Below, one piece after another: positions 6,070 to 11,400 of a stretch of 64,000 bases of DNA; positions within the stretch are counted from its first letter, which is position 1, and each line of letters starts with the position of its first letter. Both the position numbers and the translations under genes were made by a program. Location: contig NZ_FOLE01000002.1 of the NCBI RefSeq assembly GCF_900112255.1, positions 131,854 to 195,853 on the forward strand, given 5' to 3'. Source of the stretch: Flexibacter flexilis DSM 6793. GTDB lineage: Bacteria > Bacteroidota > Bacteroidia > Cytophagales > Flexibacteraceae. The notes beneath the pieces were generated by a model that did not search any database, was not told where the DNA came from, and saw nothing but the letters and a program-made list of their open reading frames with translations.

Positions 6070-6108
6070 AAAAAAAAACAGTCTGGTCGAAACTCAACCT
6101 GACTGTTC
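6070..6108 (-). terminator. Terminator of the tRNA-like RNA
   Basis: On the minus strand AACAGTC-A-GGTTG, loop, CGACC-A-GACTGTT forms a long hairpin followed directly by a run of T residues. It lies 42 nt beyond the 3' end of the tRNA-like RNA and would stop its transcript before yceI. Confidence 0.8.
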
Positions 6109-6149
6109 AAACTACCTATTAATACACCAAATTAACCAAAAAAATTTTG

Positions 6150-6269
6150 CTGTAAGAGAAGGACTCGAACCTCCACGAGGCGGTTAGCCCATAGTTTATG
6201 CTACGGGTTTTTTCCGAGCTCCTCACCCCCGAGACAGGAGGGCATGGCTGCCAATTTCATCACCTTACA
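6150..6269 (-). tRNA. Class II tRNA-like RNA with extra-long variable arm, anticodon loop reading GUC
   Basis: The 120-nt minus-strand sequence folds as a tRNA. Acceptor stem: TGTAAGG/TCTTACA (7 bp, extendable to 8 by C-1:G73). D arm: ATG-AAATTGGCAGC-CAT, similar to tRNA-Leu. Anticodon stem: CCCTC/GGGGG with the 7-nt loop CTGTCTC (U33, anticodon G-U-C at 6235-6233, unusual U37). T arm: GGAGG-TTCGAGT-CCTTC. The roughly 51-nt variable region pairs as GAGG/CCTC and CGG/CCG around an inner hairpin CCCGTAG-CATAAA-CTATGGG. G73 is followed by CAA, so CCA is not encoded. The long variable arm is a Leu/Ser/Tyr trait, while GUC is the Asp anticodon, so its amino-acid identity is unclear. A TACTTTTG box lies upstream and a strong terminator follows, so it looks expressed. 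Confidence 0.6.
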
Positions 6270-6318
6270 GTATCTTTAGCTGTAAAAGAAGCAAAGCGTT
6301 TCCTTGTTCTTTCTGTTA

Positions 6319-6326
6319 CAAAAGTA
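6319..6326 (-). promoter_or_regulatory. -7 promoter element for the tRNA-like RNA
   Basis: CAAAAGTA on the plus strand reads TACTTTTG on the minus strand and matches TAnnTTTG. It is 49 nt upstream of the predicted tRNA-like 5' end. A matching TTG -33 box is not obvious. Confidence 0.45.
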
Positions 6327-6389: not shown

Positions 6390-6397
6390 TATATTTG
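6390..6397 (+). promoter_or_regulatory. -7 promoter element for the Lrp/AsnC regulator
   Basis: TATATTTG matches TAnnTTTG and lies 38 nt upstream of the ATG at 6436. No convincing TTG was found at -33. Confidence 0.45.
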
Positions 6398-8376: not shown

Positions 8377-8388
8377 TTGATAAAAACC

Positions 8389-8427
8389 AAAACGGCTGCT
8401 AATGTGAAGTTAGCAGCCGTTTTTTTA
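8389..8427. terminator. Bidirectional intrinsic terminator
   Basis: AAAACGGCTGCTA / TAGCAGCCGTTTT hairpin with A and T tracts, between the convergent aspartate kinase gene and the large surface-protein gene. Confidence 0.88.
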
Positions 8428-8442
8428 TAGAAACTAAAGCAA

Positions 8443-11400
8443 CTAATCTGCTTGAGTTACGGTATAAGTAATAGTAACCTTGTAAAAACGCAAATTCGTA
8501 GCACCTCCTTGGTCTCCTACATACCTTAAGGCGTAACTAAAACCATTGTTATCAATTATAGGATTATTAATAGCAGCATCGGTAAGATATTGTATGCTTG
8601 TGGAATTAGCAGCCGTAGCACAAGTAGCCATTTCGGTTGCACTACCATCAGTAACTTTATATAAAGCAACAGATGCAGTTACGGCGGTATTATCATACAC
8701 TGTTACATCTAAAGCTGTAACAGTCGCGCCATCGGGTAAATGTACTCCTGCCGTTCCATAAGCCTCCGTACCAGACGTTCCTCCAGAAAAATAAGCATAA
8801 TTAGGAGCAGTCGTTGTAAAGTTTTTGATAAGGGTATAAGTTGAACTTTCATTATGCCTTACTATTTCTGCCACAGGCACACTGTAATAATGTGTTTTAG
8901 CCGTCGCGTACTTATATTCGTTGGCCGCAGGAATTTCTATATTCCCCCCTACTTCTAACAATTCGGAAGGTGCCCCCACTCCAATACCTACATTTCCTGT
9001 ACTGGTAATAACCATTCTGTTTGCGCCATTTGTCCCAAAGTTCAGGGGCAAGGCTTCGTAAGATAAAATATTGGCTGCGGCATTATTGATAGAAATAGCC
9101 AAACCATCTGTGCTTGTTGTACCTGTACTGGTAGAGGTCAAACGTATATCCGATTGAGTAGAAATCACATCATTTAGGTGCAAAGTTGCATTTGTGGTAG
9201 AAATATTAACTCCCACTTTTACGCCAGCACCCAACACCATCGTATTCGATGCCCCAACAATCGCCCCTGCACCAATAGCTATTGCATTGGCCAACCCGCT
9301 AGTTGCGGCATCTGCGCCATAACCTACAAACACATTGCCTGTACCTGTAATGTTGGCTTGGCCTGCATTATAACCTACACCAACGTTGTTGCCAGCCGTT
9401 GTGTAAAAAAGTGCTTGACCACCAACGGCCGTGTTGTTACCGCTTGATAAATTTCTATTGAGAGAATTAAAACCAACCGCCGTATTGCTTCCACCAGAGA
9501 TATTCATACCCATAGCCGATATACCAACCGCTACGTTATTACTGCCAGTTGTTGTACTGGCCAACGAACTTACCCCAAGTGCCGTATTTTGAAAACCTGC
9601 TCCTATATTCATCATGGCCGACGAACCAATGGCTGTATTATTACCACCTGTAGCAGCCAAACCCGACGCATTTCCTAAAAAAGTATTATTTAATAATTGA
9701 TCAAGGCGACCTGCAAGCGAACCATTTACTTTAAAAACTAAAGGCACGTTGTCCGTTGTACCAATAAAATGCGTAGCCGCATTGGTTCCCACATTACCCG
9801 TCAATTGCCAAGCTCCAGGCGGTGGCGTAGGAACTTGCCACGAGGCCAAACCTGTCGCATCAGACGTAAGCACCGCGCCAGCCGCAGGCGAACCACCCGT
9901 AATTTTCACTTGGCCAGCCACTTCTAATTTGGCCGTTGGAGCGGTTGTACCGATACCCACATTTCCATTGGCCCGTAAAGACATCACATCAGTGAGTACA
10001 CCGTCATTGAGGCCATTAGCCAAAGAAATGTCCATTTGTGTAAATGAAGCATTGGATACATTACTATAGCGTTTGAGGCGAAAGGCAGCAAACTGCGAAA
10101 AAGAAGCAGATGACACGCCCGCTCTATGCAACATCAAAGCCGTTTCCGCCGCCGCAAGTGTGTTTCCGCCGTTATGCGATTGGGAAGTAATCAGGGCACG
10201 CGAAGCTGTTACCAACGGAAACTCATTCGTACCCGCCAGTTCACCACCCGTCGGAATTGCCCCTAAATGTACATCAGTAAAAGGGGTTGTCGTCCCGATG
10301 CCCACCGTACCTGCTTCCGTAATCACCATTTTTTCCATAAAATTAGCACCTAACACCAAGGGGGTAGCTTCTTTGTTCATTAGCCCCGCTTTAGAGCCAT
10401 TAGAATACAAATCCAAGCCATCTCCCACGGTAGTGCCTGAGGTTGACCCCGTAATTAGTTTTATGCGAGCCTCATTGTTCATTACACCGTCATTTACAAC
10501 TAGTTGAGAGCCTATTGACGGGGCAATTCCAATACCCACATTACCTTCCACATACATTCCTGTACGGCCTGTGGCATGGTCATTATAAATCTGTAAATTA
10601 TTGCTAGTAGCCGAACTTGGATGTAGGCGCAAATCTGCTCCATACACATCTACCACCCAGTTAGGATTAGTGCCCGCGCCGTTCAAATTCACAGAAGCTC
10701 CTTGTGAGGTGGCATCTATTGCTTGCAAAGTCATGTTGGCACTACCTGCACCCGCAACCGTTAGATTTGCACCCGTAATGGCCGTACCGCCAATGGCAGC
10801 TTTTGAACCATCAGTAACAATGCCAGAGTTGGCAATCCAAGTCGTTCCATTATGGCGTAAAGTCTGATTCAGGATACCAGAAGGCAACGAACTACCAGCC
10901 GACCACGACAAATTGCCACTACCATCATTTTTCAAAAATGTACCAGCAGTACCTTGCGCATTAGGGAAACTAGTCGATACTCCATTGATAGACAATATAT
11001 TACCTGCACCATTCACCTGAAAACCATTGGCAGATCCGACCGCCAACATCGCCGCAGGAGCTGCCGTACCGATCCCGATGCGTCCATCGCCTTGTATGCG
11101 CATCAGTTCGTTGCTTGAAGAGCTACTCTGTGCTGCATAAAATACGTGACTGTTGTTGGTGGCGGGTACTTGATAACGAAAAACACCAGAATTAATACCC
11201 AAACCCGAAAACTCATGTTCGTTATTAACATGGTTATACAATACTATTTTTCGATTAATAATAGAATTGTCTAACTCCAAACTACCCGTACCTTTGAGCG
11301 TAAGCAGCGGGTTTGTGCCTGCATAAAAACGGTATTGAGCCGTTGAGTTTGGAACAGAAAACCAATATTCCGCTGAGGCAATCCCCGTCGCAAAATCATA

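Follow-up and report, generated by a model that had tools for sequence, protein, structure and literature searches.

The window analyzed here is a stretch of 64,000 nucleotides from the genome of Flexibacter flexilis DSM 6793. A tRNA-like RNA is encoded on its minus strand, and a gene for an AsnC-like regulator lies divergently on the plus strand (Table 1). A preliminary description, made from the letters alone, had reported a tRNA-like RNA with all arms, an own promoter box and a terminator hairpin followed by a T-run, and each of these features was found on the minus strand. The class II shape, the variable arm of about 51 nt with an inner 7-bp hairpin, the Leu-like D arm and the discriminator G73 reported there are likewise present in the sequence.

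Table 1. Features of the tRNA-like RNA and of the divergent AsnC-like gene (positions in the window)
Feature	Position	Strand	Remarks
tRNA-like RNA domain, 121 nt	6150..6270	minus	C-1 (6270) to G73 (6150)
Acceptor stem, 5′ strand	6263..6269	minus	UGUAAGG (U1 G2 U3 A A G G)
Acceptor stem, 3′ strand	6151..6157	minus	UCUUACA; pairs with 6269-6263
G73 and encoded C74	6149..6150	minus	G73 6150, C74 6149; both invariant
Anticodon loop	6231..6237	minus	CUGUCUC; GUC 6235-6233, U37 6232, C38 6231
Variable arm, 51 nt	6175..6225	minus	split stem of 4+3 bp, A-rich/CUAA internal loop, inner hairpin
T arm	6158..6174	minus	GGAGG-UUCGAGU-CCUUC, covarying
Promoter −7 box	6319..6326 (6326 = 5′ end)	minus	TACTTTTG; Bacteroidota TAnnTTTG type
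3′ tail	6108..6148	minus	GGTTAATTTGGTGTATTAATAGGTAGTTT; between tRNA-like domain and terminator
Intrinsic terminator	6071..6107	minus	hairpin and T-run
AsnC-like regulator (Lrp/AsnC family), 155 aa	6436..6903	plus	divergent from the RNA
Box upstream of the AsnC-like gene	6390..6397	plus	TATATTTG; TAnnTTTG type

The cloverleaf features present include U8-A14, G18 and G19, UUC in the T loop, a 7-bp acceptor stem and a tRNA-like 3′ end. The D arm is GAUGAAAUUGGCAGAC with a D stem of 3 bp, the anticodon arm reads CCCUC-CUGUCUC-GGGGG and the inner hairpin of the variable arm CCCGUAG/CUAUGGG. U33 is present, position 37 is a U, and the copy has an A at 20a, i.e., it lacks U20a. The acceptor branch is of the 7/5 type (12 bp), or 8/5 if Y-1 pairs with G73. 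A TAnnTTTG box is found at most 160 nt upstream of 94 of 165 RNA copies, compared with 15 of 160 control stretches, and we infer that the boxes TACTTTTG and TATATTTG form a divergent promoter pair.

ARAGORN calls no tRNA anywhere in the window, and Rfam gives no match at the RNA locus, including RF00005 and the YrlA model RF02553. The fold energy of the window RNA is only mildly better than that of shuffled sequences (z −1.56); the case for the RNA must therefore rest on comparative evidence.

A conserved and covarying RNA family

Homologues were identified by DNA search in nine of the 11 genomes of the same bacterial family. A covariance model detected the RNA throughout the order Cytophagales; its matches in 291 genomes formed two groups, a strong one with E values of about 1e-24 to 1e-47 and a weak one (about 1e-4 to 1e-18), the latter being read as ordinary tRNAs. 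At E <= 1e-18 the RNA was found in 31 of 296 genomes of the phylum, among them members of further families of the class and of one more phylum lineage; outside the order, absence means that this one model gave no match at E <= 1e-18. The named matches comprise Dyadobacter, Emticicia, Aquirufa, Cyclobacterium, Marivirga, Flammeovirga, Sporocytophaga and many Saprospiraceae, and metagenome-assembled genomes labelled Cryomorphaceae and Chitinophagaceae contain the RNA as well.

A MAFFT alignment of 10 sequences has 98.9% of its cells paired and double changes in five pairs, compared with 2.0 expected. Every arm finds support in it, and the anticodon stem and both parts of the variable stem show compensatory changes. 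An alignment of 111 distinct sequences, which was fitted to the model, gives the same picture as the MAFFT alignment: 98.6% of the cells are paired, a value that falls to 50-60% when the partners are slid, changes on both sides occur in 17 of 28 pairs, compared with 10.2 in shuffles, and doubly changed cells number 321, compared with 85 in shuffles. The RNA family is real and is more than a chance cloverleaf. The preliminary description had named covariation in related Cytophagales as a check and a decayed gene as one possible outcome; covariation is strong across the order and beyond. A decayed tRNA gene or a chance cloverleaf would agree with the ARAGORN miss and the modest fold z-score, but conservation and covariation over the order and in other Bacteroidota lineages refute decay and leave this reading a negligible probability. 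No description of the RNA was found in the openly accessible literature, a scope that excludes most subscription journals; it is a widespread bacterial RNA that belongs to no described family and is apparently undescribed.

In many genomes near-identical copies of the RNA are arranged in tandem, about 20-60 nt apart in the arrays read, and processing from a longer transcript is therefore likely. The 3′ tail GGTTAATTTGGTGTATTAATAGGTAGTTT is almost invariant within the bacterial family and was not seen in the other families read. One genome (G010) also encodes a 53-nt mini version (L054:476-528, minus strand) that consists of acceptor, short D arm and T arm, without anticodon or variable arm; downstream of it come the conserved 3′ tail and the terminator that also follow the full-length RNA close by.

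The RNA is also found on 16 IMG/VR contigs, 15 of which carry a full copy. On the contigs examined, genes for helicase, exonuclease, primase, DNA polymerase or terminase are located near the RNA (e.g., L222, L223, L224, L228, and L234). These phage copies keep the invariant positions, and their stem changes are compensated. INPHARED phages and PLSDB plasmids gave no match to the RNA at blastn sensitivity. Retention of the RNA by phages argues for a usable product or service that it provides.

Invariant and relaxed positions

Kept positions were counted in 84 unique copies, which were found independently and whose retrieval does not fix these bases. U1-A72, G2-C71, U3-A70, G73, C74 and U35 are present in all 84 copies, C36 and C38 in 83 each and G34 in 72; A34, C34 or U34 occurs in approximately 14%. 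U33 is kept in 70 copies and a purine at position 37 in just five. An Asp-type anticodon loop with an odd U37, on an RNA transcribed on its own, had rightly been noted in the preliminary description. In the 111 sequences, acceptor pairs 1-3 never vary and pairs 4-7 covary freely; the top of the acceptor is therefore conserved for its sequence itself.

The top three acceptor pairs are those of the tRNA-Gln of the same genome (UGU/ACA). Among the tRNAs of this genome that were read, U1 occurs elsewhere only in tRNA-Asn, tRNA-Gln and one tRNA-Met; tRNA-Asn and tRNA-Gln have U1-A72, and tRNA-Asp has G1-C72 and U20a. Most ordinary tRNAs of F. flexilis also encode C74 only, so that the invariant G73-C74 resembles a normal tRNA 3′ end. 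The RNA shares G73, G2-C71 of the bacterial Asp set and the anticodon loop with bacterial tRNA-Asp (the loop CUGUCAC of the own tRNA-Asp differs from CUGUCUC at position 37 only), whereas U1-A72 instead of G1-C72, the missing U20a, the class II arm of about 50 nt and the lack of a purine 37 distinguish it. Its D arm GAUGAAAUUGGCAGAC resembles that of the own tRNA-Leu(UAA), GGUGAAAUUGGUAGAC; it differs from bacterial tRNA-Leu in having G73 instead of A73, an Asp-type loop and a much larger variable arm.

The determinants for aspartate are G73, G34, U35, C36 and C38, with G2-C71 as a minor one, and amidation of Asp-tRNA is conferred by U1-A72, with G1-C72 and U20a as antideterminants (PMC9976931). 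All of these AspRS determinants are present in the window copy; for GatCAB, U1-A72 is present in 84 of 84 copies and U20a is missing from the window copy. As judged from its bases, the RNA combines signals for AspRS and GatCAB with a loop that is relaxed in its decoding features. Recognition by AspRS should weaken in the copies without G34. AspRS, as a class II enzyme, comes to the tRNA from the variable-loop side, and the 50-nt arm may therefore clash with it.

The same features bear on the proposal, made in the preliminary description, of a serine-type allo-tRNA. A decoding tRNA of unusual shape, for example an allo-tRNA that reinterprets Asp codons, would have the class II shape in common with the RNA, G73 and the long variable arm are SerRS features, and GUC is among the frequent anticodons of 8/4 allo-tRNAs (PMC7609411) and fits that set. 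However, the 12-bp acceptor branch is 7/5 and not 8/4 or 9/3, and conservation in the loop is centred on the AspRS determinants, whereas U33 and purine 37 are not conserved. The genome has two normal tRNA-Asp genes, and recoding of Asp codons throughout the genome would do harm. We consider a decoding role very unlikely and the allo-tRNA a poor fit. tRNA-Sec, which likewise has the class II shape and G73 and from which the RNA differs in the same acceptor branch and in its lost decoding features, was ruled out, since the RNA has the anticodon GUC and a D stem of 3 bp, whereas tRNA-Sec has UCA, a D stem of 6 bp and an 8/5 branch.

The variable arm

In the variable arm, a 4-bp stem and a 3-bp stem are separated by a short bulge and followed by an internal loop (approximately AUAAA opposite CUAA) and an inner stem, and the length of the inner stem and of the whole arm differs widely among copies. 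The apical GGGUNGACCAC and the internal loop AUAAA/CUAA are conserved in many copies and may represent a structural or binding module. Our guess is that the arm blocks entry into the ribosome or binds a partner.

YrlA RNAs mimic tRNA, and the RNA shares with these bacterial Y RNAs (RF02553) the character of a stable non-coding tRNA mimic. If it were a YrlA-type Y RNA and as such a tRNA-mimicking partner of Ro60, the GGGUNGACCAC of many copies, which is loosely similar to a Y RNA motif, and the TROVE/Ro60 gene in the own genome would fit. The RNA is, however, neither linked to Ro60 nor does it co-occur with it: Ro60 is present in 31 of 118 genomes of the order and the RNA in most, and many genomes with the RNA lack Ro60. 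In addition, the Ro60 gene of F. flexilis lies on a different contig, next to a YrlA/tRNA-like RNA of its own; at the RNA locus the Rfam YrlA model gives no match, and the acceptor of the RNA is intact with G73-C74. A Y RNA is thus extremely unlikely.

The AsnC-like neighbour

Clustering of the neighbours at 113 loci revealed one dominant partner, a divergent Lrp/AsnC-family gene that is arranged as in the window at 46 loci; many of the other loci are additional copies within arrays or are flanked by little sequence. The gap between this gene and the RNA is usually 82-207 bp, with 327 bp in one locus. At the same 113 loci no downstream neighbour of the RNA is conserved across families. The signature shared by the intergenic regions consists of the promoter box and AT-rich words only, and no clear operator was found in them.

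The solved structure closest to the AsnC-like protein is that of E. coli AsnC (2cg4; 5e-35, compared with 1e-23 for the next one), with 64 of 149 residues identical. The protein reaches 164 bits with the NCBIfam AsnC model, which is under the model cut-off of 227. The AsnC protein of E. coli is responsive to asparagine. Among 99 sampled genomes of the phylum, close orthologues (at least 54% identity) are found in those with the RNA and, besides, in G021 and G292, and asnA or asnB was not seen beside the AsnC orthologue in two genomes lacking the RNA. In the window lysC adjoins the AsnC-like gene, which is a local arrangement. In many genomes SUF genes (sufB and others) follow the AsnC-like gene, namely at L108, L110, L112, L114, L118, and L119 and also at L143, L148, L151, L159, and L269, where they replace the lysC of the window.

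The regulator next door, the tandem near-identical copies and the long variable arm with its conserved modules would suit a regulatory mimic: uncharged, it would act as a decoy or sponge, binding AspRS, GatCAB or the AsnC-like protein and modulating their activity. The invariant G73-C74 3′ end and the invariant top pairs of the acceptor point instead to an aminoacyl acceptor, and the length of the variable arm varies greatly; we regard such a mimic as quite improbable. The preliminary description had also considered a tRNA-derived regulatory RNA. Derivation from a tRNA with another job is supported, but this job is likely that of an aminoacylated substrate and not primarily regulatory.

Co-occurrence with GatCAB and scarcity of E. 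coli-type asparagine synthetases

The invariant U1-A72 suggested a link to GatCAB, and this idea was then put to the test on genomes chosen by their RNA status. The sample comprised 44-55 genomes of shared ancestry, in which species are not independent, and gatB was used as a stand-in for GatCAB in all counts. All 30 genomes with the RNA contain gatB and 19 of them GlnRS, and AsnRS is present in 44 of 44 genomes tested. Among the genomes with GlnRS, in which AsnRS is also present, gatB was found in 19 of 19 with the RNA and in none of 10 without it (p 5e-8, phylogeny ignored). Within-family contrasts of gatB by RNA are seen in f23 (G367 and G386 versus G292) and f24 (G297, G323, and G378 versus G307). 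Since AsnRS is present throughout, GatCAB is not needed for translation in the genomes with GlnRS. Four members of the class have gatB without the RNA (G331, G031, G046, and G021); all of them lack GlnRS and thus need GatCAB for Gln-tRNA. The genome of the window lacks GlnRS as well, so that its GatCAB is also needed for Gln-tRNA.

Asparagine synthetases show the opposite distribution. E. coli-type AsnA or AsnB is present in one of 30 genomes with the RNA, compared with nine of 14 without it (p 2.5e-5), a count that treats one partial AsnB as present: in the genomes lacking the RNA, seven E. coli-type AsnB proteins score 833-958 bits (cut-off 499) and an eighth, the partial sequence, 464. G038 has AsnA and the RNA together, and in G018, which has the RNA, an AsnA match lies just under the cut-off. 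Long TIGR01536 paralogues persist in most of the genomes that have the RNA; they score 209-325 bits on the E. coli-type AsnB model. Relatives of these paralogues make asparagine in some bacteria, and the asparagine supply therefore need not depend on the RNA. G010 contains the RNA, gatB, GlnRS and AsnRS, and no known asparagine synthetase was found in it.

It has been reported that some bacteria, including some Bacteroidetes, keep GatCAB beside AsnRS and GlnRS where asparagine synthetases are missing, and tRNA-dependent asparagine synthesis on tRNA-Asn was proposed for them (Alperstein et al., PMC4206432). The RNA is a candidate carrier for tRNA-dependent asparagine synthesis in Bacteroidota. 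The same identity elements and the GatCAB evidence would also fit an Asp-charged, perhaps amidated RNA that feeds another pathway (envelope, lipid or peptide modification) or signals its charging state, with asparagine supply not being its purpose. There are known cases of non-decoding tRNAs serving as amino-acid donors, such as the S. aureus tRNA-Gly for peptidoglycan, and the long TIGR01536 proteins remain in most hosts. Yet no transferase or pathway gene is consistently linked to the RNA, the linked gene is AsnC-like, and E. coli-type asparagine synthetases are nearly absent from the genomes with the RNA, which makes this reading unlikely.

A proposed role in asparagine formation

We consider it fairly probable that the RNA is a non-decoding RNA, charged by AspRS and amidated by GatCAB, that is dedicated to the formation of asparagine. 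The observed basis consists of the RNA family, its structure and invariant positions, the linkage to the AsnC-like gene, the co-occurrence with GatB and the near exclusion of E. coli-type asparagine synthetases; the homologous family, the AsnC-like partner and the GatCAB link are additions to the preliminary description. All biochemical steps are inferred: sequence and gene co-occurrence suggest charging with aspartate and its conversion into asparagine, and release is a putative further step. The RNA would be transcribed as a single unit or as part of an array and would undergo tRNA-like processing, with CCA completed after G73-C74. AspRS would read G73, G34-U35-C36, C38 and G2-C71 and load aspartate, and GatCAB would recognize U1-A72 and convert Asp to Asn on the RNA. 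The loss of conservation at U33 and purine 37, together with the huge variable arm, would keep the charged RNA off the ribosome, so that Asp codons are not misread as Asn. Release of the asparagine, by hydrolysis or some factor, would yield free asparagine for use by AsnRS, and the divergent AsnC-like regulator would tune transcription of the RNA to asparagine.

We rate this proposed function as resembling tRNA-dependent amino-acid synthesis, on an RNA of no described family. Common to both would be the steps of tRNA-dependent asparagine synthesis on tRNA-Asn in Deinococcus, Thermus and Bdellovibrio, where a non-discriminating AspRS loads aspartate and GatCAB amidates it via U1-A72. The carrier there is an ordinary decoding tRNA whose product enters protein, whereas the RNA would be a separate carrier with an Asp anticodon that must not decode. 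The staphylococcal non-decoding tRNA-Gly is a tRNA outside translation and a metabolic aminoacyl carrier; amino acid, enzyme partners, structure and lineage are different, but the carrier role would be alike if the explanation is right.

The broader claim is that this RNA class serves solely as a cofactor of amino-acid synthesis, with Bacteroidota and some phages making asparagine on a ribosome-incompetent tRNA that replaces a protein synthetase and is under AsnC-like control; we see this as evenly poised between right and wrong. If true, it would be RNA-dependent amino-acid synthesis uncoupled from translation, on a relative of tRNA that is retained solely for its role as a cofactor in metabolism, a cofactor RNA of the kind long proposed for the RNA world. 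It would explain why GatCAB is retained in many Bacteroidota that have both AsnRS and GlnRS, and a possible asparagine supply in Bacteroidota without E. coli-type AsnA or AsnB. Regardless of the mechanism, the RNA family is conserved in a major environmental phylum and is overlooked by standard annotation.

Other RNA elements of the genome

The tRNA-like RNA located by the TROVE/Ro60 gene (L265:4036-4230, minus strand, own contig C1) has an RF00005 match of 35 bits and a weak YrlA match and is probably the real Y RNA of this genome. Two more odd tRNA-like matches were found on the own contigs C8 and C14 (L098:101-177 and L100); one is a 76-nt “tRNA-Leu(gag)” with G73 and a displaced anticodon, the other a 43-bit RF00005 match without an ARAGORN call. 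In the window itself, positions 8380-8544 between convergent genes contain a strong hairpin with T-runs and give sub-threshold Rfam matches (Thr_leader and others), and this element reads as an ordinary bidirectional terminator.
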